From the NCBI RefSeq assembly GCF_026130045.1, contig NZ_JAIBNX010000023.1:17271-60985 (forward strand): a stretch of DNA of 43,715 nt, in the 5' to 3' direction. Numbering within the stretch: position 1 is the stretch's first letter; each line of letters starts with the position of its first letter. The notes under the pieces were generated by a model, which saw only the letters and a program-made list of their open reading frames with translations, was not told the origin of the DNA and did not search any database. Origin of the DNA: Micromonospora sp. CPCC 205371. Lineage in GTDB: Bacteria > Actinomycetota > Actinomycetes > Mycobacteriales > Micromonosporaceae. Below are positions 4,576-39,272 of this stretch, in pieces. Position numbers and translations under genes: made by a program.

Positions 4576-5534
4576 TGACATTACTTGAGGTCATGACGGG
4601 AACCCAGGCACCGCAGGTGGCGCGGTCGCCCGCCCGGCTGGCCTGGCGGCGCCTGCGCCGGGACCGGGTGGCGGTCGCCAGCGCCGTGGCGCTCGCCGTC
4701 ATCGTGGCCCTGTCGGCCGGCGCTCCCGTGGTCTGCGCGCTGCTCGGCATCGACACCGAACGCCACATCGAACTGCTCAGCATCGACAACGTCGGCTTCC
4801 CGGAGGGCGCCTTCGGCGGCATGAGCGCCGACCATCCGCTGGGCGTCGAGCCCAAGACCGGCCGCGACCTGCTGGCCCTTCTGCTGTACGGGTCGCGCAC
4901 CTCGCTACTGATCGCGCTCGGCGCCACCGCGCTGTCAGTGGTGCTCGGCGTCGCCTTCGGGCTGTGCGCCGGCTACTTCCGCGGCTGGGTCGACAGCGTG
5001 CTCTCGCGCACCATGGACGCGCTGCTGGCGTTCCCGGTGCTGCTGTTCTCCATCGCGCTGCTGGTCGTGCTCGGCGGCGTGACACCGACCGGGGGAAACG
5101 GCAACGGGCTGCGCATCGCCGTGCTCATCCTCGTCATCGGGTTCTTCGGCTTCCCGTATGTGGGCCGGCTGGTCCGCGGCCAGGTGATCGCGTTGCGGCA
5201 GCGGGAGTTCGTCGAGGCGGCACGCGCCCTCGGCGCCTCCGACCGCCGCATCCTGGGCACCGAGATCCTGCCGAACCTCGTCTCGCCGATCCTCGTGGTC
5301 GCCACCCTCACCATCCCGACGCGCATCCTCGCCGAGGCCGCCCTGTCGTTCCTCGGCGTCGGCATCCAACCGCCGGGCACGTCCTGGGGACAGCTACTGG
5401 GCTCCGCGTCGCACGTCTTCACCGTCACACCGACCTACATGCTCTTTCCCGGCCTGACCGTGGTCGTCACGGTGCTCGCCTTCAACCTGCTCGGCGACGG
5501 CCTACGGGACGCGTTCGATCCGAAAACCAACTGA
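4575..5534 (+). CDS. Peptide/nickel-type ABC transporter permease (DppC-like)
   Basis: This inner-membrane subunit of a peptide-class importer has 319 residues. It begins with the family's cytosolic helix (LAWRRLRRDRVAVASA), then the first membrane span, a periplasmic insert with the DHPLGVEPKTGRDLLALLLYG motif typical of DppC/OppC, and about five further spans. The ATPase-contact loop is EFVEAARALGASDRRILGTEILPN in split form: EFVEAARALG then ASDRRILG. The C-terminal AALSFLGVGIQPPGTSWG is a DppC hallmark. The start is uncertain: GTG 4575 may be leaderless, while ATG 4593 gives MTGTQAPQ but its GAGG is only two bases away. It is the first gene of a five-gene rightward operon. Confidence 0.93.
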   Translation: MTLLEVMTGTQAPQVARSPARLAWRRLRRDRVAVASAVALAVIVALSAGAPVVCALLGIDTERHIELLSIDNVGFPEGAFGGMSADHPLGVEPKTGRDLLALLLYGSRTSLLIALGATALSVVLGVAFGLCAGYFRGWVDSVLSRTMDALLAFPVLLFSIALLVVLGGVTPTGGNGNGLRIAVLILVIGFFGFPYVGRLVRGQVIALRQREFVEAARALGASDRRILGTEILPNLVSPILVVATLTIPTRILAEAALSFLGVGIQPPGTSWGQLLGSASHVFTVTPTYMLFPGLTVVVTVLAFNLLGDGLRDAFDPKTN

Positions 5535-5545
5535 TTGAGGCGCCA

Positions 5546-7309
5546 ATGAGACTTCTGATATCGGCCGGCGCGGTCGTCGCCACGCTGGTGACCGCTGGCT
5601 GTTCGGCTTCGGCGGACAAGGACAACGGTGGCGACGCGGCGGGGTTCGACGCGGCGCGCAAGGGCGTCGTCAACGCCTCGGACGCCACCGGCGGGACGCT
5701 GCGACTCGGCGGCACCTCCGACTGCGACTCGTGGGACCCGGCGGCCACGTACAACGGGTTCTGCTGGAACATGCAGCGGCTGATGACGCGTACCCTGGTC
5801 GCCTCGCCCGGGTACGGCGACCCGGCCCGCACGATGAAGCCCGGCGAGCTGGTGCCCGACCTGGCGACTGCCCTGGGCGAGTCGAACGCGGACAAGACGG
5901 TGTGGACGTACAAGCTGCGCCCCGGGGTGAAGTTCTCCTCCGGCGCGGCCATCACGAGCACCGACATCAAGTACGGCTTCCAGCGGATGTGGGCCACCGA
6001 CGTCATCTCCGGCGGGCCGGCCGGGTACTTCCTGTGCCTGCTGGACACCTGCGACGGCGAGGGGAACCCGGCGTACCAGGGGCCGTACAAGGACAAGACC
6101 GGTGGCCTGGCCCGGATCGAGACGCCGGACCCGCAGACCATCGTGTTCAAGCTGACCAGCTCCTTCGCCGACTTCGACTACCTGATGGCGCTGCCGGCCA
6201 CCGCGCCGGTGCCGAAGGCCGCCGACACCGGCGGCACGTACACCCGCAAGGTGACCGCGTCCGGCCCGTTCGTGATGAGCGAGTACACGCCCGGGCAGGG
6301 CGTCACCTGGACCCGTAATCCACATTGGAGCCAGGACACCGACGAGGTGCGCAGGCCCAAGGTGGACAAGGTCACGCTGACCCTGCTGAGCAACCCGGAC
6401 GACCTCGACGCCCGGCTCAAGAACGGTTCGCTGGACCTGTCGGCCGGCGGCGGCGTGCAGCCGACGTTCCAGTCCGAGATCCTCAATACCGCGAGCCTGA
6501 AAGCCAACGCCGACAACCCGGTCAGCGGCTTCGTCGGGCTGTTCGCCATCTTCCCGACCGCGCCCTCGCTCGACAACGTGCACTGCCGGCGAGCCATCGC
6601 GTACGCCCTGGACAAGCGGGACCTGCTGGTGCAGTCGGGCGGGAGCTTCGGTGGCGATTTCGCGGCCACCCTGCTGCCGCCGGCGGTCCCCGGCCATGAC
6701 ACCAAGGCCAACGCGTACCCGTCCGGCGCCGACTGGACCGGCGACCTCGACAAGGCCAAGCATGAGCTGGTGGAGTGCGGCAAGCCGGACGGTTTCGACA
6801 CCGTGATGGCGTACACGAACTCCGGCTCCGACCCGCAGATCTTCGCCAGCGTGCAGGCCGCCCTCAAGCGGGTCGGCATCACGGTGACCGGCAAGCAGCA
6901 GGACGAGAGCGTCTACTACGGCAGCTACATCGGCGCGCCGGCCAACGTCAAGCAGCAGCAGCTCGGCATCGCCGCGATCGGCTGGGCGCCGGACTACCCC
7001 AGCGGCAATGGCTTCCTGAGTCTGCTCGTCGACGGTGCCCGCATCCAGGACGAGGGCACCACCAACTACGTCAGCGTCAACGACGACGTCCTCAATGGAC
7101 TCATCAAGCGCGCCACCACCGCTCCGCTGGTCGAACAGGCGGGGATCTTCCAGGAGCTCGACAAGCAGACGATGGAACGGGCCATCTACATCCCGTACTT
7201 CTACCAAAAGTTCCTGCTGTACCGGAACCCACGCCTGACCAACGTCGACCTGCGCGCCGATCTCGGCTCGTACGACCTGGTCAACCTCGGGGTCAGTGAC
7301 GGCAAGTAG
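5546..7309 (+). CDS. ABC transporter substrate-binding lipoprotein, SBP_bac_5 family
   Basis: The product has 587 residues and starts at ATG 5546 with GAGG five bases upstream. The N-terminus is a lipoprotein signal with lipobox VTAGC (Cys19), so the mature protein is anchored outside the membrane. The body is the family 5 (DppA/OppA) fold: GGTLRLGGTSDCDSWDP, then a VWTYKLRPGVKFSSGAAI segment, and YGFQRMWATD. A cysteine pair (CLLDTCDGEGN) sits in an insert common in actinobacterial members. The C-terminal lobe includes RRAIAYALDKRDLL. Unusually it lies between the two permease genes rather than ahead of them. The ligand is unknown; a peptide, or an N-acyl or D-amino-acid-containing compound, is inferred from the surrounding hydrolases. 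Confidence 0.93.
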   Translation: MRLLISAGAVVATLVTAGCSASADKDNGGDAAGFDAARKGVVNASDATGGTLRLGGTSDCDSWDPAATYNGFCWNMQRLMTRTLVASPGYGDPARTMKPGELVPDLATALGESNADKTVWTYKLRPGVKFSSGAAITSTDIKYGFQRMWATDVISGGPAGYFLCLLDTCDGEGNPAYQGPYKDKTGGLARIETPDPQTIVFKLTSSFADFDYLMALPATAPVPKAADTGGTYTRKVTASGPFVMSEYTPGQGVTWTRNPHWSQDTDEVRRPKVDKVTLTLLSNPDDLDARLKNGSLDLSAGGGVQPTFQSEILNTASLKANADNPVSGFVGLFAIFPTAPSLDNVHCRRAIAYALDKRDLLVQSGGSFGGDFAATLLPPAVPGHDTKANAYPSGADWTGDLDKAKHELVECGKPDGFDTVMAYTNSGSDPQIFASVQAALKRVGITVTGKQQDESVYYGSYIGAPANVKQQQLGIAAIGWAPDYPSGNGFLSLLVDGARIQDEGTTNYVSVNDDVLNGLIKRATTAPLVEQAGIFQELDKQTMERAIYIPYFYQKFLLYRNPRLTNVDLRADLGSYDLVNLGVSDGK

Positions 7310-8326
7310 ATGCTCCGGTACCTGCTCGGGCGGATCGCGGGCGCGCTGACGGTGGTGGTGGTCGTCAGCGTGGTGACCTTCGCGATCTTCCAGCTCGCAC
7401 CTCGGCTCACCGGTGCCAACATGGCGTTCTACTACACCGGCAAGAGCACCAGCGAGGCACAGGCCGCGGCGGTCGCGCAGAAGTTCGGCTTCGACAAGCC
7501 GCTGCCCGAGCAGTACTGGACGTTCATGTCCGGCATCGTCGCCGGGCGCGACCTCAGCGATGGCGTCACCGAGGTCCGCTGCCCGGCGCCCTGCCTGGGC
7601 TACTCGTTCCGGCAGAACAGGCCGGTACTGGAGATGATCGGCGAGGCGTTCCCGGTGACTCTCGGGCTGACGCTCGGCGCGGCGGTGCTGTGGCTGCTGT
7701 TCGGGGTGGCTGCCGGAGTGCTGTCGGCGGTACGCCGCGGCTCGGTCTTCGACCGGCTCGCCACCGCGGTCGCGCTGATCGGGGTCTCGGTGCCGGAGTT
7801 CTTCACCGGGATGCTGCTCATCTACCTGCTCACCTCCGGCCCCGCCTGGCTGCGGCTGTACCCCGACGGCATCAACTACGTGCCGCTCACCGAGGACCCG
7901 GTCGGCTGGTTCGCCGCCATGGTGCCGCCGTGGACCTGCCTGGCGCTGCTGTTCGCGGCCCTGTACGCCCGGCTCACCCGCGCCACCATGCTGGAGACGC
8001 TCAGCGAGGACTACGTGCGCACCGCGTGGGCCAAGGGCCTACCGCCGCGCACCGTCGTGGGCAGGCACGGGCTGCGAGCGGTACTGCCGCCGATCGTCAC
8101 GCTCGTCGGCCTGGACGTCGGCGCGCTGCTCGGCGGCGTGGTGCTCGTCGAGACGCTCTTCAGCTTCCCGGGGCTGGGACGGCTGGCGTACCGGGCCATC
8201 ACCTCACAGGACCTGCCAGTGATCATGGGGGTGACCATCGTCGGCGCCCTGCTCATCGTGTGCGCGAACCTGATCGTCGACCTGCTCTACGGTGTTCTCG
8301 ACCCGAGGGTGCGCAATGCCCGTTGA
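7310..8326 (+). CDS. Peptide/nickel-type ABC transporter permease (DppB-like)
   Basis: This 338-residue permease begins with ATG immediately after the TAG of the binding-protein gene, so translation is probably coupled. It has the DppB pattern: an N-terminal span (RYLLGRIAGALTVVVVVSVV), a large external loop holding KFGFDKPLPEQYW, then about five spans. The ATPase-docking loop EDYVRTAWAKGLPPRTVVG is followed by the conserved LRAVLPPIVTLVGLDVG and ETLFSFPGLGRL. An external CPAPC motif in the first loop could be a disulfide, as in other actinobacterial DppB relatives. It pairs with the DppC-like permease to form the channel. Its last 11 bases overlap the next gene. Confidence 0.94.
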   Translation: MLRYLLGRIAGALTVVVVVSVVTFAIFQLAPRLTGANMAFYYTGKSTSEAQAAAVAQKFGFDKPLPEQYWTFMSGIVAGRDLSDGVTEVRCPAPCLGYSFRQNRPVLEMIGEAFPVTLGLTLGAAVLWLLFGVAAGVLSAVRRGSVFDRLATAVALIGVSVPEFFTGMLLIYLLTSGPAWLRLYPDGINYVPLTEDPVGWFAAMVPPWTCLALLFAALYARLTRATMLETLSEDYVRTAWAKGLPPRTVVGRHGLRAVLPPIVTLVGLDVGALLGGVVLVETLFSFPGLGRLAYRAITSQDLPVIMGVTIVGALLIVCANLIVDLLYGVLDPRVRNAR

Positions 8327-9350
8327 AACTACGCCGCCCGCTGACCCGCTTTTGAGTGTGCGCGACCTGCGTGTGCAGTTCCCCACCGACGACGGCCTCG
8401 TACGCGCCGTCGACGGGCTCTCCTTCGACGTCGCGCCCGGCGAGATCGTCGGCGTGGTGGGGGAGTCCGGTTCCGGCAAGTCGGTGACCGGCCAGGCGAT
8501 CCTCGGCCTGCTGCGCCGGACCCGGGCGCGGGTCACCGGCGAGATCCGGTTCGACGGCCGGGACCTGGTCACCGCGCCCGAGGCCGAGCTGCGGCGGCTG
8601 CGCGGCGCCGAGCTCGCCATGGTGTTTCAGGACCCACTCTCCGCGCTGCACCCCTACTACACCGTCGGAAGCCAGGTCAGCGAGGCGTACCGGGTGCACA
8701 ACCGGGTCAGCAAGCGAGCCGCCCGGGAGCGGGCCGTGCAGATGCTCGACCGGGTCGGCATCCCCGAGCCGCACCGCCGCTACGGCGCGTACCCGCACGA
8801 GTTCTCCGGCGGTATGCGGCAGCGCGTGATGATCGCCATGGCGCTGGTGTGCACGCCCCGGCTGCTCATCGCCGACGAGCCGACCACGGCACTGGACGTC
8901 ACCGTGCAGGCTCAGATCCTCGAACTTCTGGGAGACCTGCGCGACGAGTTCGGCTCGGCGGTGCTGCTGGTCACCCACGACCTCGGCGTGGTCGCCGAGA
9001 CCTGCGACTCGGTGGTGGTCATGTACGCCGGACAGTGCGTCGAGCAGGCCGGCGTCGAGGACCTGTTCGCCCGCCCGCAGGCCCCGTACACGTGGGGCCT
9101 GCTCGGGTCGATGCCGCGCGTCGACCGGGACCGGCGCGATCGGCTGGCGCCGATCGGCGGGCAGCCGCCGTCGTTGCTGGCCATTCCGCCCGGTTGCGCT
9201 TTCGAGCCGAGATGCGGGTACCACGAAGAGGTACCGGAGAGCCGGTGCGTCGATGAACGCCCCGCGCTTGTCCACGATGGACAAGGACGCGCCGTGCGCT
9301 GCCACCTCACAGCCGGGCAGCGGCTGACCCTGCGACCGGTGGCCCCATGA
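8316..9350 (+). CDS. Peptide ABC transporter ATPase (DppD-like)
   Basis: The product is a 344-residue cytosolic ATPase. The chosen start is ATG 8316, eight bases after GAGGG and inside the end of the permease gene; an upstream GTG at 8292 has no binding site. Motifs in order are Walker [13 protein letters not shown]-loop [17 protein letters not shown] signature FSGGMRQR, Walker [13 protein letters not shown] and the H-loop in [10 protein letters not shown]. The C-terminal oligopeptide-transporter extension is present, with [19 protein letters not shown] and paired cysteines, which in relatives can carry an iron-sulfur centre. It forms a heterodimer with the next ATPase, which it overlaps by ATGA. 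Confidence 0.95.
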
Positions 9351-10309
9351 CGGACCTGTTGACGGTGAGCGACCTGCACAAGGACTTCGGCGGCGTGCGG
9401 GCCGTCGACGGCGTCTCGTTCACCGTGCGGGCGGGGGAGACGCTCGGCCTGGTCGGCGAGTCCGGCTGCGGCAAGTCCACCACCGCCCGCCTGGTGACCC
9501 GGCTGCTGGAGCCGACGTCCGGCAGCGTCCGGTTCGACGGGCACGAGATCAGCCGGTACCCCGAGCGCAAGCTCCGCCCGCTGCGACGCGACCTGCAGAT
9601 CGTGTTCCAGGACCCGATCGCCTCCCTCAACCCGCGGCACACCGCCGGCACCATCCTCGCCGCACCGTTCCGCATCCAAGGGGTACGCCCACCCGGCGGC
9701 CTGCGGGCGGCGGTGGCCGAGCTGATGGCCCGGGTTGGGCTCAACCCGGAGCACTACAACCGGTACCCGCACGAGTTCTCCGGCGGCCAGCGGCAGCGAC
9801 TCGGCATCGCCCGCGCCCTCGCGCTGCGCCCGAAACTGGTGGTCTGCGACGAGCCGGTGTCCGCGCTGGACGCCTCGGTGCAGGCCCAGGTCGTCAACCT
9901 CCTCGCCGACCTGCGCGACGAGTACGGCCTGTCGTACCTGTTCGTGGCCCATGACATGGCGGTGGTGCGGCACCTGTCCGACCGGGTCGCGGTCATGTAC
10001 CTGGGTCGCATCGTCGAACTCGCCGACCGTGACACCCTGTACGCCGCACCCCGCCACCCGTACACGCGAGCCCTGCTGTCGGCGGTACCCGTGCCGGACC
10101 CGGCGCTGCGCGGGCGCCGCGAGCGCGTGCTGCTTCGCGGCGACCCGCCGGCCGCGGGAGAGGCCGCCGTGGGGTGCCGCTTCCGCGGCCGCTGCCCCCG
10201 CTACCGCGACGACCTCGACGACACTCAGCGCGAGCGCTGCGCCACCGAAGACCCGCAGCTCTCCAGCGACCCGTCAGGCGCCGTAGCCTGCCACTTCCCC
10301 GGCCATTAG
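9347..10309 (+). CDS. Peptide ABC transporter ATPase (DppF-like)
   Basis: This second ATPase (320 residues) starts within the ATGA overlap at 9347. It has Walker [14 protein letters not shown]-loop [14 protein letters not shown], signature FSGGQRQR, Walker [13 protein letters not shown] and H-loop [10 protein letters not shown]. The C-terminal extension ends with [14 protein letters not shown] and a distant cysteine, as in DppF/OppF. With the DppD-like subunit it powers the importer. Only 12 bases separate its stop from the MurG-like gene, in the same direction, so the glycosyltransferase may be on the same transcript. Confidence 0.95.
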
Positions 10310-10321: not shown

Positions 10322-11491
10322 ATGTCTCTATACAGCGCTCGGCACCTGCAACGACTTCGCATGATCGTGACGGGAGGTGGCACGGGTGGACATACCTACC
10401 CGGCGCTGACCACGATCACCACGCTGCGGGCCCGGCTCGCCGAGACCGGCACCGAGCCGGAGTTGCTCTGGGTCGGGGTGAGCGACGGGCTGGAAGCCAA
10501 GATCGCCACCCGGGCCGGCGTGCCGTTCAAGGCGATCGTCACCGGCAAGCTCCGCCGCTCCACGAACCCGCGCGACCTGCTCCGCAACTTCGTCGACGCC
10601 TTCCGCATCCCGTTCGGCGTGTTCCAGGCCGTCGCGATCGTCGCACGCACCAAGCCGGCCGTCGTGCTGTCGACCGGCGGGTACGTGTCGGTGCCGATCG
10701 GGCTGGCCGCTCGCCTGTTCGGCGTGCCGTACCTGATGCACGAGCAGACCCTGAGCCTCGGCCTCGCCAACCGCATCCTTGCCCGCGTCGCCACTCGCGT
10801 CCTGCTCAGCCACGAGTCGTCGCTCGCACACGTGCCCGCCGGTTCCCGCGACCGCAGCGTGGTTACCGGAAACCCGATCCGGCCCGAGATCCTGGCGGGC
10901 GACCGCGCCAAGGGGCTGGCCGCTTTCGGTCTCGACCCGGCGGTGCCGTTCATCCTGGTCACCGGCGGCGCGTCCGGGGCGCGCCAGATCAACCAGATGC
11001 TGACCGCGGTGCTGCCCGACCTGCTGCCACACTGCCAGGTCGTGCACCAGTGCGGCGGCCTCGACATCGCCGAGATGCAGCAGGTCGCGGCGGGCCTGCC
11101 GCCCGGCCTCGCCCATCGGTACCGGGTGCTGGACTTCATCCACGACGAGCTGCCCGACCTCCTGGCCGCCGCCGACATCGTGGTCGCTCGCAGCGGCGCC
11201 GGGACCGTCGCCGAACTCACCGCGCTCGGCAAGACCTGCGTCCTCGTGCCGTACCCGTACTCGGCCGGAGGCGAACAGCGCGTCGCCGCTCGGACCCTCG
11301 CCGCGCAGGGCGCCGCGGTCATGCTGGACGGCGACGAGGCCACGCCGGACCATCTCCGGCACACCCTCCGGTCGCTGCTGGCCGACCCGGCGCGGCGGGC
11401 CGCGATGGCACACGCCGCGGCCGGGTACGGGCGCCCGGACGCCGCCGACCGGGTGGTCGCCGAGATCCTGGCGGTGGCCGCCCGAGGCTAG
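10322..11491 (+). CDS. MurG-like UDP-GlcNAc glycosyltransferase (divergent paralogue)
   Basis: The product has 389 residues. MurG adds N-acetylglucosamine to lipid I at the inner face of the membrane. The family's N-terminal loop GGGTGGH (residues 18-24), STGGYVSVP, HEQ and TGNPIR are present. Others are changed: the usual GGSQGA reads GGASGA, and the nucleotide-sugar site reads VARSGAGTVAEL followed by PYPYSAGGEQ instead of the common PLPHAxDxHQ type. This looks like a specialised paralogue rather than the housekeeping enzyme, which normally sits in the division/cell-wall cluster. The start is uncertain: ATG 10322 has no clear binding site, and ATG 10361 would begin right before the glycine loop (MIVTGGG). 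A TATACA at 10329 could be a -10 for the shorter form. It converges, three bases apart, with the D-Ala-D-X ligase gene. Confidence 0.85.
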   Translation: MSLYSARHLQRLRMIVTGGGTGGHTYPALTTITTLRARLAETGTEPELLWVGVSDGLEAKIATRAGVPFKAIVTGKLRRSTNPRDLLRNFVDAFRIPFGVFQAVAIVARTKPAVVLSTGGYVSVPIGLAARLFGVPYLMHEQTLSLGLANRILARVATRVLLSHESSLAHVPAGSRDRSVVTGNPIRPEILAGDRAKGLAAFGLDPAVPFILVTGGASGARQINQMLTAVLPDLLPHCQVVHQCGGLDIAEMQQVAAGLPPGLAHRYRVLDFIHDELPDLLAAADIVVARSGAGTVAELTALGKTCVLVPYPYSAGGEQRVAARTLAAQGAAVMLDGDEATPDHLRHTLRSLLADPARRAAMAHAAAGYGRPDAADRVVAEILAVAARG

Positions 11492-11494: not shown

Positions 11495-12613
11495 CTAGTG
11501 GCTCGCGGCCGGCTCGCGCGCCACGCGGCTGCTTCGCCGCGCGAGGGCGGTGTCGATGAGCACGTCGAGCAGCGCCGGATACGCAAGGCCCGCCGCGCTC
11601 CACATCCGTGGGTACTGGGACATGGCGGTGAACCCGGGCATCGTGTTGACCTCGTTCACCACCGGGACCAGGTCCTCGTTCCCCTCGACGGTTGGTAGGA
11701 AGAAGTCGACCCGCAGCAGGCCCGAACACCCGAGTACGCGAAACGCCTCGACCGCCTGTGCCTGAAGGGCGGCCGTGACCGCGGGGGGCAGCTTCGCCGG
11801 GATGTCGAAGACGGTCTCACCCTGGTACTTGGCGTCGAAGTCGAAGAAGGAGTGCCTGTCGGGCACCCGGATCTCCAGCGGAGGCCCGGCCACTACCCGG
11901 CCGTCCGGGTACTCCAGGACTCCGACGTCCACCTCCCGCCCGCGTACCGCGGCCTCCACGAGCACCTTCGACATGCCGGTCTTGCGCGCCGTCGTGATGG
12001 CCTCGTCGAGCGACGCCCAATCGTCCACTCTGGATACGCCAACGCTCGACCCCTCGCGCGCCGGCTTGACGAAGACGGGCAGCCCGAGCCGTTTGCGCTC
12101 CTCCGGGCTCACGTCGTCTTCTTCCGTCCCATCCAGCACCACGCTGTCGGCGACGAGCAGGCCGGTCTCGGCCAGGAGCTTCTTGGTCAGCTCCTTGTCC
12201 ATTCCGATGCCGCACGCCAGCACTCCGCTGCCGACATACGGAATGCCGAAGAGCTCCAGTGTGGACTGGATGGTGCCGTCTTCCCCGTGCCCGCCGTGCA
12301 TGGCGGGAAAGGCGACGTCGACCTCGTCGCGGAGCCGGCGCAGCGCGCTCCACATGCTCTCCAGCACGGAGGGCCGGCGTCCCGCCGGATCGCGTGTCAT
12401 GTCCTGAAGCGCCACGGTGTCGACGTCGGTGGGCACCGGGTGGTCCCGGCCGATCGTCCACACGCCGTCGGTGCCGATCCGCACGGGCGTCACCTCGTAC
12501 CGCTCACGGCGCAGGTGCCGCACGATGCTCGCCGCGGAGGCGCACGACACGCCGTGCTCGGCGCTGCGGCCGCCGAAGAGGACCGCCACCCTGGTTTTCG
12601 AGTCGCCGGTCAC
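11495..12613 (-). CDS. ddl: D-alanine--D-X ligase (Ddl/Van family)
   Basis: This is a 372-residue ATP-grasp ligase that joins D-alanine to a second D-residue for the peptidoglycan stem. The start is GTG 12613, seven bases after AAGGAGG and overlapping the VanX stop as GTGA. Motifs are N-terminal VLFGGRSAEH; MHGGHGEDGTIQ; the ATP-grasp KPAREGSSVGV; the omega-loop FFDFDAKYQ (256-264); RVDFF; and NEVNTMPGFT. The omega-loop retains the Lys-Tyr pair (262-263) of D-Ala-D-Ala ligases and lacks the VanA-type loop, so D-lactate specificity is unlikely. Phe256-Phe257 replaces the Phe-Tyr I recall for typical Ddl and matches my recollection of VanC/VanG serine ligases, so D-Ala-D-Ser is possible. It is the last gene of the PLP enzyme-vanX-ligase operon. 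Confidence 0.93.
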   Translation of the reverse strand: MTGDSKTRVAVLFGGRSAEHGVSCASAASIVRHLRRERYEVTPVRIGTDGVWTIGRDHPVPTDVDTVALQDMTRDPAGRRPSVLESMWSALRRLRDEVDVAFPAMHGGHGEDGTIQSTLELFGIPYVGSGVLACGIGMDKELTKKLLAETGLLVADSVVLDGTEEDDVSPEERKRLGLPVFVKPAREGSSVGVSRVDDWASLDEAITTARKTGMSKVLVEAAVRGREVDVGVLEYPDGRVVAGPPLEIRVPDRHSFFDFDAKYQGETVFDIPAKLPPAVTAALQAQAVEAFRVLGCSGLLRVDFFLPTVEGNEDLVPVVNEVNTMPGFTAMSQYPRMWSAAGLAYPALLDVLIDTALARRSSRVAREPAASH

Positions 12614-13299
12614 GCGCACTCCTCCTTCGATGTGGTGGTGCCCGTCAGCAGCGCTGGACCGTAGTGGCTCCTGCCGGTCCCGGTGACGTACGCCCAGTAG
12701 CGGTCGCCGAAGGACCAGTGCCACCACTCGGTCGGGTAGTTCACCAGTCCGGCGCCGGACAGTGCCCGCGCCAGCGTCCGCCGGTTGTGCCGGGCCCGCT
12801 CGGAGACGTTGGTCGCGGCGGTGAAGCAGGCGTTGGCGCTGGCCTCCGGAGTCGCGTCGATGCAGGTGCCCATGTCCAACTCGATGCCCTCGTCGGTGCA
12901 CAGCGTGAGGTCGATCGCCCCACCGGTGCTGTGGGGAGCCACCTCGACCGGCGAGGCGAACTTGCTCGTCTCGACGAACAGCCGGTCCGCGCTCCAGTCC
13001 GGATGCAGGCTCCGCAGTTCGTCCCGGTACCCGTCGAAGACCGACCGTTGGGTCTCCAACCGCCGGTATCCCTCGACGACCAGCAGCCGCAGCCCGCCGG
13101 GGAGGGCGGCCTGCGCGTCCAGCAGCCGCCGCACCACCCCTTCGCGCAGGTGGGCGAAGGCATCCGTGGCACCGGCGTGGCGGTTGTCCACGTGAAGTTC
13201 GGTCACCTCGCGTACGTCCACCAACGACTCACCGTTGTCGGATAGGTCGATCGCGGCGATGCGCGGATCGGAGAGCAGGACCATCGGTCCACCCGTCAT
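12610..13299 (-). CDS. vanX: VanX-type D-Ala-D-Ala dipeptidase
   Basis: The product has 229 residues with no signal peptide, as expected for the cytosolic zinc dipeptidase that destroys D-Ala-D-Ala so that an altered dipeptide is used in the cell wall. The M15D zinc site is complete: His123 and Asp130 in APHSTGGAIDL, and Glu191 and His194 in YPTEWWHWSFGD. GYRR (78-81) holds the arginine of the family's active site. The start is ATG 13299 behind GGAGG, overlapping the PLP-enzyme stop as ATGA; its own stop overlaps the ligase start. A cell-wall-recycling role (DdpX-like) is the main alternative to resistance; the adjoining ligase favours a remodelling role. Confidence 0.94.
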   Translation of the reverse strand: MTGGPMVLLSDPRIAAIDLSDNGESLVDVREVTELHVDNRHAGATDAFAHLREGVVRRLLDAQAALPGGLRLLVVEGYRRLETQRSVFDGYRDELRSLHPDWSADRLFVETSKFASPVEVAPHSTGGAIDLTLCTDEGIELDMGTCIDATPEASANACFTAATNVSERARHNRRTLARALSGAGLVNYPTEWWHWSFGDRYWAYVTGTGRSHYGPALLTGTTTSKEECA

Positions 13300-14312
13300 G
13301 ACGCCGCCTCCTCGCGTCCCGTGCCGTACTCGGCGACCAGGCGAGCGATCACGGCCGCCTCGGCGTTTCCGCCCGTGAGCACGACGCCGATGTCGGTGAA
13401 CGACCCGCTGGCGGCCAGGCGCAGCGCACCGGCAAGGCCGGCCGCGCCGGACGGCTCCAGCAGCAGCTTGGCGTGGAAGAGTCCGAGGCACACCGCGCGG
13501 GCGATTTCGTCGTCGTCCACCCGCACGACGCCGGCGATCCGGTCCCGGACTATCTCGAACGGAAGGCGCCCCACGAGCGAGGGCCTGAGCCCGTCGGCCA
13601 GGGTTGGTGCCGGTGGCACGCTGATCCGGCGACCGGCGGCCAGGCTCTGCCCCAGCGAGTCGCATCCGACCGGCTCCACGCCGTACACGGCGGTGTCGCT
13701 TCCCTGGACCGTGAGGCAGGCACCAGCCACCCCGCCGCCCCCGCCGACCGGCACGACGACAGCGTCCAGCCGGGTGCCGCGCCGGCCGGCCTCCTCGACC
13801 AGCTCCCACGTCGCGCTGCCCTGGCCGGCGATGACATCCGGGTGGTCGTACGCGTCCAGCAGGGCATCACCACTCGCCGCCCGTAACCGGTCGACGACCT
13901 CCAGCCGTTCCTCCACCGTCGTGCCGGCCAGCTCAACCCGGCCGCCGCAGGCCTCGATACCGGCGACCTTGCTCGGCGACGCGTCGACGGGAAGCACCGT
14001 CGTGGCGGTGAGGCCGTACCGCTCGGCGGCCATCGCGACGGCGAGCGCGTGGTTTCCCGTACTCTGCGCGATCACGCCTCGATGCCCGCCCTGCTGGGCG
14101 ATCTGGTCGACCGCCCGCAGTGCGCCTCGAAACTTGTATGAGCCGCCGGTCTGAAGGTTTTCCGCCTTCAACCACAGACGCACGCCCGCGATCTGGTCCA
14201 ACGTGGTGGAACGGACCAGCGGCGTATCCACCACCCGATCGCGTAACCACCAGGCCGCCGCCTCCACGTCGTCGCGGCGCACACCTCTGTGCGCCAGCAA
14301 CCTGTTCGCCAA
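13296..14312 (-). CDS. Fold-type II PLP enzyme, serine racemase/threonine dehydratase-like
   Basis: This 338-residue enzyme has the serine/threonine dehydratase-racemase layout: LKAENLQTGGSYKFRGA with PLP lysine Lys60, the QSTGNHALAVA phosphate-side loop, and the glycine loop PVGGGGGVAG (188-197). The C-terminus has LLLEPSGAAGLAG and VLTGGN. There is no C-terminal ACT regulatory domain, so it is unlike biosynthetic IlvA and closer in size to serine racemase or catabolic TdcB. Its stop overlaps vanX by four bases, which ties it to the D-peptide genes. In that setting production of D-serine, or disposal of L-serine, is plausible but inferred. The start is TTG 14312 with GGAGG four bases upstream, a short gap; an internal GTG at residue 11 is an alternative. 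Confidence 0.9.
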   Translation of the reverse strand: MANRLLAHRGVRRDDVEAAAWWLRDRVVDTPLVRSTTLDQIAGVRLWLKAENLQTGGSYKFRGALRAVDQIAQQGGHRGVIAQSTGNHALAVAMAAERYGLTATTVLPVDASPSKVAGIEACGGRVELAGTTVEERLEVVDRLRAASGDALLDAYDHPDVIAGQGSATWELVEEAGRRGTRLDAVVVPVGGGGGVAGACLTVQGSDTAVYGVEPVGCDSLGQSLAAGRRISVPPAPTLADGLRPSLVGRLPFEIVRDRIAGVVRVDDDEIARAVCLGLFHAKLLLEPSGAAGLAGALRLAASGSFTDIGVVLTGGNAEAAVIARLVAEYGTGREEAAS

Positions 14313-14483
14313 CGTTCCTCCCCCGTCGCAGCAGTCCTCCTTAACAGATGGACGGGTGGCGCCGGGGTTGGGCTGCTACGGCGGCGATTCCTATGACCTG
14401 GTTCACAACACGCACCGCAGTGTTCCGGTTACAGATTTCGTGTTTGTCGACCGTGCTGCCGCTGCGCGCGGGACGATCGAGAC
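14313..14483. promoter_or_regulatory. Divergent intergenic region between the van-like operon and the lysin-like gene
   Basis: These 171 bases must hold promoters for both directions. I find no convincing -35/-10 pair. Reading leftward there is a perfect AAGGAGGA at 14342-14335, but it lies 22 bases before the TTG start with no ATG or GTG after it at a usable distance. A second GGAGG (14321-14317) sits next to the TTG. The middle (14380-14440) is the least GC-rich part and the likeliest place for operators. Confidence 0.4.
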
Positions 14484-15779
14484 ATGCGACGTTTCTCGAC
14501 GGTTGAAACCGGCCGGCTCGGTGAACGGATCATCAAACTGGCCGAGAAGGTGCGGGTCCGCGCCAATCTCGCCGAAAAGGACATTTACGTGACTTCCGGA
14601 ATGGATGGGGACCACGGTCCCCGGCCACACGGAAGCCACCACTATGGGCTGCACGGCAAGGATGGGTCTCGCTCAGCGGCCATCGACTTCGGCGCCCTCG
14701 ACGACTCCGAGCACCAGAAGAAGGACGAGCGCGACATGCAGGCGTTCGCCCGGCAGTGGGAAAAGGACCTCGCCGACATCACGCTGGAGCTGATTCACAC
14801 CACTCCATTCCGCGACGACAGCGGGTTCTACATCAAGGAGGGAAAGCGGACCAGTTACGGCGCGGCTACGGCGAAGGCACACCGCAACCACATCCACGTC
14901 GCCATGTCCGAGAAGCAGGTCACCGCGGCTGAGAAGCGCCTCCGTTCGACGAGCGCGCGCTCAGCCTTGCCCAAGCACGCCGTATCGGATTGGTGGACGC
15001 ACCACGTCGGCGAGAAGGGCCTGGACTATTCCTTCGACCGGCCCGCGCCGGACGCGTCGTGGAAAGCGGGCTACCGGTTCGTGATGCGCTACCTGTCATG
15101 GCGCCCCAACGACAAGATCCTGACAAAGTCCGAACTGGACGCCTTGTTGAAGCGTGGCTTCGCGGTCGGGCTCAACTGGGAGTTCGACGCTAGCGACCAG
15201 TTGCGCGGCCGCGAAGGTGGCCGCAAGGACGGTGCGGAAGCGCTGCGCCAGGCGCGCGCCCTCGGCGCGCCGAAAGGGCTGACCATCTACTTCTCGGCCG
15301 ACTGGGACGTCCAGCGCGGACAGGTCGCCGCCTGCAAGGCGTACTGGAAAGGCGCCCAGGAAGCGCTAGCGGGCCAGTACAGGGTGGGCGTGTACGGCGG
15401 GCTCCGGGCGGTGTCGGCCGCCCTCGACGGTGGCTATCGCGGTTGGCAGACCTTCGCCTGGTCCGGCGGGGAATGGGACAAGCGAGCGCACATCCGTCAG
15501 ACCAGGAACAACTTCAAGCTCGACGGCGCCAGCGTCGACCGGAACGAACTCCGAAGCCTGGACGCCGGTCTGTGGGGGCTGTCCGATGAGGAGGACATGA
15601 TGATTTTCGGAAAGGTCAAAGGCAAGGCCGCCGTCGTCAAGGCACTGCAGGACCACACGTACGTGGACATGAAGGACTGGCCCGCCGTCAAGAGGGTGCT
15701 GGAATCGGGCGGTGGCAGGCTCGTCGAGTTCGACTCCAAGGAGCAACTCGAGGCCGTCCTCGGCAAGAAGGCGGCCTGA
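14484..15779 (+). CDS. Two-domain lysin-like protein: M15-like zinc peptidase plus DUF1906
   Basis: The product has 431 residues. The first 150 carry a zinc-peptidase pattern like D-Ala-D-Ala carboxypeptidase or endolysin domains: SHHYGLHGKDG with His52/His53, AAIDFG with Asp68, and the closing HRNHIHVAM with His136 and His138. Residues about 170-365 match DUF1906, the GH25-like fold of mycobacterial Rv2525c: GLDYSFDRP, FVMRYLSW, VGLNWEFD, IYFSADWDV and VGVYGGLRAV. A 60-residue tail is unassigned. No signal peptide or Tat motif is visible, which is odd for a wall-cutting enzyme and recalls phage endolysins. The start is ATG 14484; its binding site is weak. It is transcribed divergently from the van-like operon and converges with the AraC gene. 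Confidence 0.82.
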   Translation: MRRFSTVETGRLGERIIKLAEKVRVRANLAEKDIYVTSGMDGDHGPRPHGSHHYGLHGKDGSRSAAIDFGALDDSEHQKKDERDMQAFARQWEKDLADITLELIHTTPFRDDSGFYIKEGKRTSYGAATAKAHRNHIHVAMSEKQVTAAEKRLRSTSARSALPKHAVSDWWTHHVGEKGLDYSFDRPAPDASWKAGYRFVMRYLSWRPNDKILTKSELDALLKRGFAVGLNWEFDASDQLRGREGGRKDGAEALRQARALGAPKGLTIYFSADWDVQRGQVAACKAYWKGAQEALAGQYRVGVYGGLRAVSAALDGGYRGWQTFAWSGGEWDKRAHIRQTRNNFKLDGASVDRNELRSLDAGLWGLSDEEDMMIFGKVKGKAAVVKALQDHTYVDMKDWPAVKRVLESGGGRLVEFDSKEQLEAVLGKKAA

Positions 15780-33026: not shown

Positions 33027-36000
33027 ATGCTTTCCCGGCTGCAAGCCCCCGCCCGCTGGACCGCGATCCTGGCGTTGCTCGCCGGTGCGGCTATCTTCGC
33101 CTTCCAACCGCCGGAACGGGACAGGTCCGGCGCGCTCGACCCCGACCTCGGCACACCGGTGGAGGCCGAAAGCGTCAAGGGCGCTCCGGTCGACCTGCAG
33201 GCCGAGGGTGTACGGATCCCGGACCGGACCTGGAAGGGGTCCGGACCGGTGGGCTGGCCGGCGGCGGGCACCAAAGCCATCCCGCTGCGCGCCACGACCG
33301 GTGCGGCGCGCGGCGGAACCGCGGAATTGCGCACCTTCGCCCAGGACACCGCGACGAAGCTCGGCATCGACGGTGTGGTGTACGAGGTGGCGTCCGATGT
33401 GGATGGTGGCGCCGATCTCGTGGTGGACTACAGCCGGTTCGCGGGCGCCTTCGGCGGCGGCTGGTCCTCCCGGCTGCGCCTCGTCGCGCTGCCCGGTTGC
33501 GCGTTGAGCCAACCAGACAAGCCGGAGTGCCTGACCGGCACCGAGCTGGACAGCGTCAACGACACCGCGAAGCAGACGGTCAGTACGACCGTGCCGGTCA
33601 CCGGCGGTGCCACGATCGTAGCGCTGTCCGCCGCCGCGAATGGTGCGACCGGCGACTGGTCGGCCACCGACCTGTCGCACGCGGGCTCATGGTCGCACGG
33701 CGGATCGTCGGGCGGCTTCAGCTACTCCTACGCCATGCGGGTGCCGCCGTCAGCCGGACCCGTGCCGGCGCTGTCCTTCTCGTACTCGTCACAGGCGGTC
33801 GACGGCCACACCTCTTCGTCGAACAACCAGGCCGGGCTGATCGGCGACGGCTGGGGCTATCACCCGGGCCTCATCGAACGCACCTATGTGGGCTGTTGGG
33901 GCGATGAGGGCGGCAACACCCCGGACGTCACCGGAGACCGGTGCTGGGACGGGACGTCCGACTCGGTCACCATCTCGCTCAACGGCGTGAACGCCCCGCT
34001 GGTCAAGGACGACAGCTCTGGGGCATGGCACGTCGCCGCGGACGCCGGTTGGAAGGTGGAGCTGCTCGGGGCGCGCGCCGCCGCGTCGTCCGCGACGTCG
34101 GAGCGCTGGCGGATCACCGCCAACGACGGCACCCAGTACCTGTTCGCGGCCCGCGCCGGCGCGACCGACTCCCGGTTGACCCAGCCGGTGTTCGGCAACC
34201 ACTCGGGCGAGCCCTGCTACAAGTCCGACGACTTCGCGGGCTCGTCGTGCGCCCAGGCGTACCGGTGGCTGCTCGACGAGGTGATCGACGCGCGTGGCAA
34301 CGTGACGCGCTACGAGTGGACCGCGGAGACCGGCCACTACGGCGCCGCCGCCGACGTCGACAACCGGAAAGCCTTCCACCGCGCCGTCCGGCTGACCAGG
34401 ATCGACTACGGACTGCGCGCCGACGACGCCTCCGCCGCCGCGACGGGCCGGGTCACGTTCTCCTACGGCGACCGGTGCGACGCCGACTGCCGCGACTCAG
34501 GCGGTGACGTGCGGCCGGCCAGCTGGCCCGAGACGCCATGGGACCTCGACTGCAAGGCCGCACCCTGCACCGACCAGCTCACGATGGCGTTCTTCGCCTC
34601 CCAGCGGCTGACGTCGATCGCTACGTACGTGCGCGAGGGGGAGTCGTTCACCAAAGTGGACTCGTGGGCGTTGAAGCACAGCTTCGTGGACTACGGCGTC
34701 GAGGAGGACACGGTGCTGTGGCTGGCGTCCATTCAGCACACCGGTCACGTCGGCGGCAGCGAGTCCACGCCGCCGGTCACGTTCGCCGGCACACCGATGG
34801 CCAACCGGGTGGAACACTCCGAAGGTGAGCCGTCCATCTGGCGTACCCGGCTGACCAGGATCGTCTCCGAGACCGGCTCGGAGACGCTGGTCTGGTACTC
34901 CGCTGAGGAGTGCAAGTGGGACGACCGGCCCAGCCCGCAGGACAACGGCCGCCGCTGCTATCCGATGTTCATCGACAGGGGCCCTCACGAGGAGCGGCTC
35001 GAGGAGTGGTTCCACAAGTACGTGGTCACCCAGGTCGCGGAGTTCGACACCACGGCCGGGCAGTTGCCACTGCGCACGTACTACACGTATGACACGGCCA
35101 GCGGTGGCACATCACGGCTGTGGGCCTGGGACAACAGCGAGTTCACCGATGACGACCTGCGCACGTACTCGCAGTGGCGCGGCTACGCCCAGGTGACCAC
35201 CAAGGTCGGCGACCCGGCCGAGGACACCCAGCTCACCTCCCACACCCGCTACTACCGCGGCATGGACGGCCAGCCCGACACCGCGTCGGGCACCGGGTCG
35301 CGCACCGTGAAGGTCACCGACGGCGAAGGCAACCAGCTGACCGACCACGCGACACTCGCCGGCGCGGTGTTGGAGACCGCCCGATACGACGGCACGACCG
35401 TCATCGACGCCACGGTGAGCCGCTACTGGACCAAACAGACCGCCTCCCGCGCTCACGACGGCGGCACCACCAAGGCATGGATGACCGGGGAGTCCCGCAC
35501 GGACACCCGCAAGCTGCTGGATGCCGCCACCGGAACCTGGCAGCGCACGCGCCACACCACCGAGTTCGACGACCGCGGGCGCCCGGTGGCCGGCTCGGAC
35601 CTCGGCGACCTCGCGGCACCGGACGACCAACGCTGCACACGCACCACCTACGTCGACAACGCCAGCAAGCACCTGTACGAGCAGCCGTCCCGCATCCAGG
35701 TCGTCGCCGTGCCATGCTCGGACACCCCGTCGTGGCCCGGCGACCTGGTCGCCGACCAACGGTTCTCCTACGACGCGGCTGGTGCCCAGACGGCCGTCGA
35801 GGAAGTGTCGACGCACGACGGCACATCGGCAAGCTGGGTCAAGACCAGCGCGTACACCTACGACCGCCTGGGGCGGCAGACCTCGGAAACCGACGCGCTC
35901 GGCAAGACCACTACCACGCGGTACACCCCCGCCGATACTGGCGTGACGACGTCAGCGACCACCACCAATCCACTCGGTCACGCGACGACCGTTCACAACG

Positions 36001-39000
36001 CGCCGGCATGGGGACTGCCAGCCAAGACCGTCGACCCGAACGGCCGGGTCACCGAGCTGGCCTACGACCCGCTCGGCCGCACCGTCGCGGCCTGGGGGCC
36101 GGGCTGGAGCCGCGTCGACCACCCCGATACGCCGACGGCGTCGTACCGGTACCGGATGAAGAACGACGGCCCGTCGGCGATCATGTCCTTTGTGCTCAAG
36201 GCCGACGGCGGGCAGCGCCTGGACGGCATCGCCCTCTTCGACGCGCTGCTGCGTCCCGTACAGCAGCAGGCGCCCACGCCGCAGGGCGGCCGGCTGGTGT
36301 CCAGCACCAGGTACGACACCCGTGGCCTGACCGAATGGACCTCCGGCCCGAACTGGGTCGACGGCGTGGGGCCGGGCACCGACCTGGTCGCGATCTCGCT
36401 GGGCGCCGACCACGCCCGTACGTTCCATACCTATGACGCGGCCGGGCGGGTCACCGCCGAGGAGTTCAGGTCGCTCCAGCGAACCCTGTGGACCACGCGG
36501 ACCAGGTATGGCGGGGCGACCACGGGCTGGATGGAGCGCACCGATCCGCCGTCGGGCGCAACGCCGTCGGCCACCATCGTCAACCTCCAGGGCGAGCCGA
36601 TCGAAAAGCGCGACTACCACGGCGCGACCGCCGACGGCGACTACGACGCCACGACCTACGACTACGACCGCCGGGGCCGGCTCAGCACCGTCAGCGACCC
36701 GGCCGGTAACCAATGGTCGTACGAGTACGACCTGAGGGGTCGCCGGGTGGCCTCGCACGACCCGGACACTGGCACCACCCGGGCCGTCTACGACGACGCG
36801 GACCGGTTGGTGGCCACCACCGACGCCCGCGGCAAGACGATCAGCACCGAGTTCGACGCCCTCGGCCGCGTCACCGCACGGTGGGCCGGCGCTCCTGGAA
36901 CCGGTGAGCTGCAGGGCAAGTGGCTCTACGACCAGGTGGCCGGCGGGAAGGGTCTGCCCTACGCTGCCGCCTCCTATGTGGACGGCAAATCGGTGACCAC
37001 GCAGGTGGCCGCGTACGACGCCGCCGGCCGGCCGATGAGCACCATCGAGTGGATTCCCGCCATCAAGGGACTGGAGTCACTGGCGGGGTCCTATCGTACG
37101 TCCCAGTACTACCACCCGGACGGCTCGGTTTCGCACACGAACCTGCCCGCGGTGGGCGGCTTGGCCCGCGAAAGCGTGACGTTCGAGTACAACGACCTCG
37201 GCCAGGCCACCGGTGTGTGGGGCGAGTACTTCGACGGCGCCGGCACGATCGTGGACTATGTGGACGGTGCCGCCTACACCGCCTGGGGTGAGCTCGCCCA
37301 GCGCGTACTGGGCGGCGCCAAGGGCAAGCAGGTTTACCAGACCTGGACCTACGAGGATGGCACCCGGCGCAGCGCCGAGTACCGGCTGTCCCGCGACGCG
37401 GTCGGCGCGACGAACGTCGCACACCTGTCGTACCAGTACGACCCGGCAGGCAACATCCTGTCCATCGCCGACGCGGTCACCGACGCACGCGGCGCACCGG
37501 AGCGCCAGTGCTTCGTCTACGACTATCTGCGCCGCCTGACCGAAGCGTGGGCGCAGGCCGGCACCGGTGCCTGCGCCGCCGGGGACAAACCATCCAGCGG
37601 CGATGTCGGCGGCCCGGCACCCTACTGGACCTCGTACGCCTACGACGTGACCGGCAACCGCACGTCGGTGACCCAGCGCCGCACGGATGGGACCAGAAGC
37701 ACCGACTCCTACGAGTACACCGACGGCGAGGCGCACCTGGTCGAGAAGCTCACATCGACAGCGGGCACCGACACCTTCGCCTGGGATTCGGCCGGCAACC
37801 TCACCAAGCGGGTGGTCGACGGTCATACCGAGACGCTGGCCTGGAACGCCCAGGGCAAGCTCGCCGCGATCACCGACGACGAGGGCACCACGCGGATGGT
37901 GCACGACGCGGAGAACAACCGCGTCGCCCGCATCGACCCCGACGGCTCGGCGACCCTGTTCGTGGCCGGGCACGAGGTCACCGCGGCACCGACCGGTGGG
38001 GTGACCGCCATCCGCACGTACAGCCACAACGGAGCCACGGTCGCCACCCGGTCGACTACCGAGGGGGTGGTCTGGATCGGCAACGACCACCAGAACACGT
38101 CGACGTGGGCCATCTCGGCGGCCACGATGGTGGTCACCCACCGCCGCCAGGACCCGTTCGGCAACGACCGCGGTTCGAACCGGCCGTGGACAGCCAGCCA
38201 GCAGGGGTACCACACCGGCACCGAGGACCCCAACGGCCTGGTCTCGATGGGCGCGCGGTTCTACGACCCGGCGACGGGGCGGTTCATCTCCCGCGACCCG
38301 ATCATCGCGTTCGAGGACCTGCAACAGGTCAACGGCTATTCGTACGCCTCGAACAGTCCAGTGGTGACATCCGACCCCAGCGGGCTGCGGGAACTGGAGT
38401 GCAGCACCGGACCCGGCTGCAAGGACGGCAGGAGTACCGGCGTCACGTGCGCGGCCGGTGGGTACGGGTGCACAAACAGCAACGGCGACAACCTCGGCAG
38501 CTGTGGATCGACGGGAACGTGCAACGACAACGGACGGGGCTCGGACACCGGCCTGGCGGGGGCGCTCGGCGGCACGTCCTACGAGCTGCCGGGAGGCAAC
38601 GAACTGGTCCTGTCGGGCGATGACGCCTACCTCAACGGCGTGCCTCTCACGGGTGCCTGGGATGACCCGCTCGAGCTGGCGCTCGACGTGCTCGAAACCA
38701 TGGAGGAGTTCGGCCTGTCCAACAGTGGTTGGGACACGGTGAAGGCGTTGTACCTGCTGTGCGAGAGCTCCGAGAAGTACCAGGGGTGCAACGGGTACAG
38801 CAGGGCACTGTCGGAGCTCTATGACGTCGCCATGTGTGCCACCGGCGAGGACTGCGTCGACTTCGAATACTGCAACGGAGTGACCTGCGAGTACGTGAAC
38901 GCCGAGGACGTTCTCGAATCGGCGACGGCGTTGGAGGAGGAGCACAACTTCGGCGACGGCGACGGATTCACCATGGCCCTCGCTTTCGCGTACGCCGGCG

Positions 39001-39272
39001 GCCTCGGCGGTGGGGGTGGTGACGCGTGCTCGGTGCACGGCCCGGGAGCGTCTCTGGCCTGTGCGGCGAACGGGGAGCTGGCGGTCGCGATGCAGGTGTA
39101 CTACGGCTGCGTGGACAATGCGAACGCGCCCAACAACGCGTGCCTGGGAGCGCTCGTCGGCGCGGCGACGTTTGGGATGAACACATACCTGATCTCCAAG
39201 GGCGACGCGATCCAGTCGCGGGGCGTTTGGGGCGGAGAGCTCAGGCTGGGGAATCCGTTCAACGGCACCTGA
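33027..39272 (+). CDS. Secreted Rhs/YD-repeat protein with unknown cysteine-rich C-terminus
   Basis: This is a 2081-residue giant from ATG 33027, with GAAAGG ten bases upstream. The N-terminal helix ARWTAILALLAGAAIFAF is a signal peptide or signal anchor. Residues about 225-275 are SpvB/TcC-like (FSYSYAMRVPPSAGPVPALS, then LIGDGWGYHPG). Residues about 910-1760 hold many YD repeats (YDPLGRT, YDRRGRLSTVSDPAGN, YDYLRRLTEAW). The Rhs core closes with GLVSMGARFYDPATGRFISRDP and NSPVVTSDPSGL near 1784. About 297 residues follow with no family I recognise, containing 16 cysteines and strong acidity. In polymorphic toxins that position carries the effector; no obvious immunity gene follows, so an effector role is only a hypothesis. 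Confidence 0.93.
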   Translation: MLSRLQAPARWTAILALLAGAAIFAFQPPERDRSGALDPDLGTPVEAESVKGAPVDLQAEGVRIPDRTWKGSGPVGWPAAGTKAIPLRATTGAARGGTAELRTFAQDTATKLGIDGVVYEVASDVDGGADLVVDYSRFAGAFGGGWSSRLRLVALPGCALSQPDKPECLTGTELDSVNDTAKQTVSTTVPVTGGATIVALSAAANGATGDWSATDLSHAGSWSHGGSSGGFSYSYAMRVPPSAGPVPALSFSYSSQAVDGHTSSSNNQAGLIGDGWGYHPGLIERTYVGCWGDEGGNTPDVTGDRCWDGTSDSVTISLNGVNAPLVKDDSSGAWHVAADAGWKVELLGARAAASSATSERWRITANDGTQYLFAARAGATDSRLTQPVFGNHSGEPCYKSDDFAGSSCAQAYRWLLDEVIDARGNVTRYEWTAETGHYGAAADVDNRKAFHRAVRLTRIDYGLRADDASAAATGRVTFSYGDRCDADCRDSGGDVRPASWPETPWDLDCKAAPCTDQLTMAFFASQRLTSIATYVREGESFTKVDSWALKHSFVDYGVEEDTVLWLASIQHTGHVGGSESTPPVTFAGTPMANRVEHSEGEPSIWRTRLTRIVSETGSETLVWYSAEECKWDDRPSPQDNGRRCYPMFIDRGPHEERLEEWFHKYVVTQVAEFDTTAGQLPLRTYYTYDTASGGTSRLWAWDNSEFTDDDLRTYSQWRGYAQVTTKVGDPAEDTQLTSHTRYYRGMDGQPDTASGTGSRTVKVTDGEGNQLTDHATLAGAVLETARYDGTTVIDATVSRYWTKQTASRAHDGGTTKAWMTGESRTDTRKLLDAATGTWQRTRHTTEFDDRGRPVAGSDLGDLAAPDDQRCTRTTYVDNASKHLYEQPSRIQVVAVPCSDTPSWPGDLVADQRFSYDAAGAQTAVEEVSTHDGTSASWVKTSAYTYDRLGRQTSETDALGKTTTTRYTPADTGVTTSATTTNPLGHATTVHNAPAWGLPAKTVDPNGRVTELAYDPLGRTVAAWGPGWSRVDHPDTPTASYRYRMKNDGPSAIMSFVLKADGGQRLDGIALFDALLRPVQQQAPTPQGGRLVSSTRYDTRGLTEWTSGPNWVDGVGPGTDLVAISLGADHARTFHTYDAAGRVTAEEFRSLQRTLWTTRTRYGGATTGWMERTDPPSGATPSATIVNLQGEPIEKRDYHGATADGDYDATTYDYDRRGRLSTVSDPAGNQWSYEYDLRGRRVASHDPDTGTTRAVYDDADRLVATTDARGKTISTEFDALGRVTARWAGAPGTGELQGKWLYDQVAGGKGLPYAAASYVDGKSVTTQVAAYDAAGRPMSTIEWIPAIKGLESLAGSYRTSQYYHPDGSVSHTNLPAVGGLARESVTFEYNDLGQATGVWGEYFDGAGTIVDYVDGAAYTAWGELAQRVLGGAKGKQVYQTWTYEDGTRRSAEYRLSRDAVGATNVAHLSYQYDPAGNILSIADAVTDARGAPERQCFVYDYLRRLTEAWAQAGTGACAAGDKPSSGDVGGPAPYWTSYAYDVTGNRTSVTQRRTDGTRSTDSYEYTDGEAHLVEKLTSTAGTDTFAWDSAGNLTKRVVDGHTETLAWNAQGKLAAITDDEGTTRMVHDAENNRVARIDPDGSATLFVAGHEVTAAPTGGVTAIRTYSHNGATVATRSTTEGVVWIGNDHQNTSTWAISAATMVVTHRRQDPFGNDRGSNRPWTASQQGYHTGTEDPNGLVSMGARFYDPATGRFISRDPIIAFEDLQQVNGYSYASNSPVVTSDPSGLRELECSTGPGCKDGRSTGVTCAAGGYGCTNSNGDNLGSCGSTGTCNDNGRGSDTGLAGALGGTSYELPGGNELVLSGDDAYLNGVPLTGAWDDPLELALDVLETMEEFGLSNSGWDTVKALYLLCESSEKYQGCNGYSRALSELYDVAMCATGEDCVDFEYCNGVTCEYVNAEDVLESATALEEEHNFGDGDGFTMALAFAYAGGLGGGGGDACSVHGPGASLACAANGELAVAMQVYYGCVDNANAPNNACLGALVGAATFGMNTYLISKGDAIQSRGVWGGELRLGNPFNGT

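Follow-up and report, generated by a model that had tools for sequence, protein, structure and literature searches.

A Van-like operon of Micromonospora in which a soluble fold-type II enzyme may stand in for the racemase

Can a soluble enzyme of a different fold take the place of the membrane racemase in a D-Ala-D-Ser-type wall system? The question is raised by three genes in a 43.7-kb stretch of DNA from Micromonospora sp. CPCC 205371 (the window, meaning the whole stretch that was analysed), which lies on contig 146 of a 9.36-Mb genome. They encode a fold-type II pyridoxal 5'-phosphate (PLP) enzyme of the PALP family, a VanX-like D,D-dipeptidase and a D-Ala-D-X ligase (Table 1). The operon is real and probably functional in remodelling, and comparison with related loci points to a product resembling D-serine. 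We lean, with moderate confidence, towards a chromosomal operon that would remodel wall precursors: a VanC/VanG-like (D-Ala-D-Ser) system built from other parts, with PALP in place of the alanine-racemase-fold (Alr-fold) enzyme.

Gene content and conserved linkage

An earlier note on this DNA had described three leftward genes joined by four-base overlaps, ATGA and then GTGA, and both coordinates and overlaps proved exact; GGAGG-like ribosome sites were seen by eye ahead of all three starts. The gene identities it gave are borne out by Pfam matches (PALP, E 3e-72; Peptidase_M15, E 8e-20; and, on the ligase, Dala_Dala_lig_N, E 5e-33, and Dala_Dala_lig_C, E 4e-53), and the lysine it had singled out in the PLP enzyme, Lys60, sits within GSYKFRG. 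The full VanX zinc site that it had claimed is also there: H123, D130, E191 and H194 align with H116, D123, E181 and H184 of structure 1r44, so that the M15 VanX signature is complete, with its His/Asp/His zinc ligands, its Glu and, judged by motif alone, its Arg. These four residues and R79 are invariant in 26/26 aligned sequences. The protein is remote from enterococcal VanX: it scores 36.9 bits, where the equivalog cut-off is 320.

The linkage of PALP to VanX or the ligase exceeds chance. Across 200 genomes of the family to which the window belongs, 34 carry a close PALP (E <= 1e-65); a VanX match lies within 3 kb in 29 of them (in G090 a fragment only), and in two more (G057 and G077) PALP adjoins a ligase and VanX is absent. 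PALP thus stands beside VanX or a ligase in 31/34 genomes, and the possibility raised in the earlier note, that homologous loci would lack conserved linkage, was checked here and in named genomes and did not hold. The remaining three comprise two remote PALPs (51% identical) and one at a contig end, with neither partner seen. VanX relatives themselves occur in 132/200 genomes at E <= 1e-3, weak matches included, and wide neighbourhoods covered 40 VanX places. A scan of named genomes, using the best 80 of 337 PALP matches, gave 79 loci: 30 with VanX, two with an adjacent window-type ligase and three that are short contigs holding PALP and a regulator pair. Of the loci examined, just the window and its sister G031 showed the order PALP-VanX-Ddl. 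Natural part-operons also exist, with PALP and VanX and no ligase (G177, G056) or with PALP, ligase and only a fragment of VanX (G090) (L151, L152, L153).

Known systems and a proposed exchange of the racemase

The architecture, which the earlier note had taken to be distinct, is not new as such. According to excerpts of a 2021 paper, a 'pdx operon' consisting of a PALP, Ddl and VanX triad with VanRS is described in Micromonosporales and is common in Micromonospora, and D-Ala-D-Ser is proposed there as its putative product (PMC8698665). In those excerpts the serine-threonine dehydratase-like PALP gene stands together with Ddl-like and VanX-like genes, as in the window; the pdx triad of PALP, Ddl and VanX is accompanied by VanRS, whereas the window reads PALP-VanX-Ddl with a convergent murG and no adjacent VanRS-like pair. 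The pdx ligases also form a Ddl clade of their own, while the window ligase comes from another lineage. What is new here is a variant of a published putative kind of operon, of interest for the proposed exchange of its racemase and for residues that make D-Ala-D-Ser testable.

With VanC/VanG-type systems (VanT, VanC/VanG, VanXY) the window shares a PLP enzyme, a D-Ala-D-X ligase with Phe252 and a Lys-Tyr loop, and a D,D-peptidase; it differs in having a soluble fold-type II enzyme instead of the membrane fold-type III VanT, Gln instead of Arg at ligase position 324, and a separate VanX-like enzyme. No gene of the alanine-racemase fold (VanT-type) was found in the window, and the proposal that a soluble fold-type II PLP enzyme occupies the slot of the racemase or VanH is supported. 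With vanHAX the window has in common the three-gene logic of a substrate maker, a ligase and VanX, but it lacks VanH, its ligase lacks the VanA omega loop and its VanX is only distantly related; membership of vanHAX was rejected on the first two of these differences.

Where does the ligase come from? In a tree of 44 rows (unrooted, with long branches flagged) it clusters with 14 ligases linked to Alr-fold enzymes (SH-like approximate likelihood ratio test, SH-aLRT, 94; inner fork 90). It falls outside the pdx Ddl clade and is 39-42% identical to 17 pdx ligases. Constraining every PALP-linked ligase to one clade is rejected (13 rows versus 31, approximately unbiased test, p-AU 2.9e-9, quick tree). 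Therefore, members of a single PALP family occur with ligases of two lineages, and ligases of a single lineage occur with racemase-type enzymes of two folds. The host genome has four ligase matches: the operon ligase, a housekeeping Ddl, a Ddl-like gene of 325 amino acids and a weak piece. The housekeeping Ddl and the Ddl-like gene were aligned, and neither is VanA-type.

In other genera of the same bacterial family, window-type ligases adjoin Alr-fold enzymes, several of these loci having VanX relatives and some MurG relatives. Where the window has PALP, they have a racemase with His at the position of Tyr354 (13/13 aligned; a fourteenth, in G006, has the same TNPHE motif, making 14/14). Tyr43 is likewise absent in 13/13 (12 Phe, one Asn), while 6/6 housekeeping alanine racemases and 1VFH retain both tyrosines. 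Tyr354 governs alanine racemase specificity and the serine racemase VanT has Asn there, according to excerpts of PMC3485190. One partner racemase scored 260 bits with the alanine racemase hidden Markov model (HMM; cut-off 168) and 202 with the VanT model (cut-off 460); being above the alanine racemase cut-off, it leaves a changed specificity to be inferred from few residues. Within the genus of the window, G031, G077 and G103 also carry a separate VanX-Alr-Ddl-kinase-regulator locus.

In G057 and G077, which belong to the same genus, PALP and the ligase overlap by four bases with no VanX between them, whereas in the window and G031 VanX is placed between the two. The simplest history, its direction inferred on an unrooted tree, would be that PALP replaced the racemase beside a window-type ligase and that VanX was inserted later. 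More broadly, we hypothesize, with the chances evenly balanced, a D-Ala-D-Ser-type wall system with an interchangeable racemase: one ligase lineage would work with two unrelated PLP folds (Alr with Tyr354His, or a fold-type II serine racemase), and the window would record such a swap beside the same ligase, followed by insertion of VanX.

The likely product and its rivals

Ligase residues were compared in VanG numbering, taken from structure 4FU0. Asp243, Phe252 and Arg324, which we take to be important in VanG, read Leu, Phe and Gln in the window ligase. Every one of the 23 operon ligases counted (the window, its sister, 8/8 PALP-linked and 13/13 Alr-linked) has Phe at position 252, as do VanG, VanA and 3/3 vanHAX ligases; 11/11 housekeeping Ddl and the Ddl of Mycobacterium tuberculosis have Tyr. 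At position 324, Gln is found in the ligases of the window and its sister and in 13/13 Alr-linked ligases, Met in 8/8 PALP-linked (pdx) ligases and 10/11 housekeeping Ddl, and Arg in VanG, VanA and 3/3 vanHAX ligases. Four further rows all have Phe252, with Gln324 in two PALP-linked ligases of the genus and one Alr-linked ligase, and Met in one pdx ligase. Gln324 was dropped as proof of D-Ser because one housekeeping Ddl (G062) also has it. The Lys257-Tyr258 loop pair is retained in the window ligase and lost in VanA types; a dipeptide, not a depsipeptide, is therefore expected.

PALP is best read as a putative soluble fold-type II serine racemase, and dehydratase activity, maybe alongside racemisation, is equally possible. 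Among proteins of solved structure its best match is a threonine deaminase, and four of the top five are serine racemases, including 1v71, which is labelled uncharacterised in the structure listing and is the S. pombe serine racemase according to excerpts of PMC6424897. By alignment, Lys60, Thr85 and Arg136 correspond to K56, S84 and R135 of human serine racemase, that is, to the fold-type II serine racemase signature of lysine, hydroxylated re-face residue (here Thr for Ser) and arginine. In the excerpted text of the same source S84 is a putative re-face base, R135 and S84 are conserved across serine racemases and hydroxyaspartate dehydratases, and S84T is the sole S84 mutant studied that retained L-Ser racemisation, though reduced 10-fold (PMC6424897). 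Lys60, Thr85 and Arg136 are found in the window PALP and 27/27 operon homologues. Among 43 relatives outside such operons, residue 85 is Thr in 16 and Ser in 27, with the Arg136 equivalent in 43/43 (70 of the 79 named-genome loci entered this alignment, nine having no long enough frame). L084, the PALP paralogue of the host genome, has Ala at residue 85. Relatives at 47-54% identity in Streptomyces and Actinomadura (L186, L187, L190, L193, L196 and L205, not L184 or L200) share an STGNH motif and lie near thioesterase or non-ribosomal peptide synthetase (NRPS)-like genes; they are perhaps suppliers of D-amino acids for peptide antibiotics.

In the mechanism that we favour, cytoplasmic PALP would convert an L-amino acid to its D-form, with L-serine to D-serine as the likeliest case. 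The ligase would couple this D-amino acid to D-Ala, and competing D-Ala-D-Ala would be hydrolysed by the VanX-like enzyme, such that pentapeptide precursors, and presumably the wall that incorporates them, would end in D-Ala-D-X. Such ends should bind glycopeptides less well; lower glycopeptide binding of D-Ser-ending precursors is established in enterococci. The operon could thus blunt vancomycin-type antibiotics.

Several observations weigh against this D-Ala-D-Ser reading. In a rival reading, PALP would be a dehydratase acting on L-serine/L-threonine or hydroxyaspartate, and the ligase and VanX-like enzyme would serve ordinary D-Ala-D-Ala turnover or protection from a Ddl inhibitor. The nearest named HMMs for PALP are ammonia-lyases, all 25 listed scoring below cut-off, and for the ligase the best-fitting models are those of D-Ala-D-Ala ligases (258 bits with the VanG model, cut-off 495). 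The threonine deaminase match and the Met324 of the pdx ligases (8/8) point the same way, as does the absence of VanX from some loci, including the PALP loci of G057 and G077. One active site serves both racemisation and dehydration in the family of PALP. At the S84 position of the human enzyme Thr supports less activity than Ser, again in excerpts (PMC6424897). Against a dehydratase speak the constancy of Arg136 and of a hydroxylated residue 85 in operon homologues, set against Ala85 in the paralogue L084, and the change of Tyr252 to Phe in every operon ligase counted; this change needs to occur only once on the tree, so the ligase sequences are not independent witnesses. Pairing a ligase with a D-Ala-D-Ala hydrolase would, moreover, make little sense in a system whose product is D-Ala-D-Ala. 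We regard the dehydratase explanation as unlikely.

Alternatively, the architecture may be as proposed with X being another D-amino acid (D-threonine, D-2-aminobutyrate or an acidic one), racemised or supplied by PALP. Gln324 and Leu243 of the ligase differ from the Arg and Asp of VanG, the partner racemases have His and not Asn as in VanT, R136 is equivalent to the human R135 that binds acidic substrates, and an aminotransferase-like gene was seen by eye near the related PALP of Streptomyces L190. The serine racemases among the solved relatives of PALP (four of five, 1v71 being named through excerpts of PMC6424897) and the Phe252 common to the window ligase and the D-Ser ligase VanG argue for D-serine instead, and make another X rather unlikely. 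It is very improbable that the genes are chance neighbours or serve some uncharacterised pathway of biosynthesis instead of the wall, given their four-base overlaps and a linkage kept across genera. The remote PALPs are the evidence on the other side: 44/79 named-genome loci (38-54% identical) are without VanX or an operon-type ligase, one of them with a housekeeping-type Ddl 7 kb away, and six of the eight viewed by eye lie near thioesterase or NRPS-like genes. A last point against the D-Ala-D-Ser reading is that the regulator pair of related operons has no match in the window (tblastn with eight regulator/kinase proteins over 43.7 kb); control may therefore differ from that of its relatives.

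If the D-Ala-D-Ser reading is correct, D-serine-ending (or similar) wall precursors would be native to environmental actinomycetes without VanT, and searches by VanT or VanH would overlook such operons. Phe257/Gln333 of the ligase, Thr85 of PALP and the His of the partner racemases make the 2021 suggestion of D-Ala-D-Ser directly testable.

Regulation and neighbouring genes

Table 1. Features of the operon and its surroundings (window coordinates)
Feature	Position	Strand	Remarks
Fold-type II PLP enzyme (PALP; serine racemase / threo-3-hydroxyaspartate dehydratase branch)	14312-13296	-	338 amino acids, TTG start; Lys60, Thr85, Arg136
VanX-like M15 D,D-dipeptidase	13299-12610	-	229 amino acids; zinc site complete
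D-Ala-D-X ligase (ATP-grasp)	12613-11495	-	372 amino acids; Phe257/Gln333 = VanG Phe252/Arg324; Lys262-Tyr263 present
Four-base overlap ATGA	13299-13296	-	PALP stop / VanX start
Four-base overlap GTGA	12613-12610	-	VanX stop / ligase start
Upstream element TGCGTGTTGTGAACCAGGTCA	14394-14414	-	divergent promoter region, upstream of PALP
Second MurG-like glycosyltransferase	10322-11491 (start maybe 10361)	+	converges on ligase, 3 bases from its stop; partial association only
Opp/Dpp-type peptide importer	4593-10309	+	its end lies 12 bases ahead of the MurG-like gene
Divergent neighbour	14484-15779	+	Rv2525c-like glycoside-hydrolase-like domain
RHS-repeat protein	33027-39272	+	2081 amino acids

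Among the 30 VanX-linked PALP loci (from the best 80 of 337 matches), the response regulator/kinase match is strong in 26 and weak in one. In the sister G031 a different pair of this type (L039 12301-13577) lies about 1 kb beyond murG, its members 45% and 27% identical to those of the VanX-Alr-Ddl locus of G103. A consensus search returned zero sigma-70 promoters and zero terminators. The 14-base core of TGCGTGTTGTGAACCAGGTCA precedes PALP in three genomes of the genus, with a one-base variant in a fourth; the element is kept there while the flanking DNA diverges, and the core has a single copy in the host genome and no more than two in the other five genomes of the genus.

MurG was rejected as a core part: its relatives occur in 31/200 family genomes, and at seven of nine viewed loci they are not beside a ligase or a racemase-ligase pair (they are at the other two, and also in L051, L052 and L075). 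The host genome has another MurG in what appears, by eye, to be a division and cell-wall cluster. The importer upstream of the MurG-like gene has counterparts near a MurG relative in L150; as a part of the system it was rejected, G031 having one OppF-like match (34%) in 19 kb. An anti-phage system was also rejected, PADLOC matching 0/4 proteins. The divergent neighbour shares a 171-base promoter region with the operon, and farther away the RHS-repeat protein adjoins a 1492-amino-acid LamG-domain protein and a polysaccharide lyase family 8 protein.

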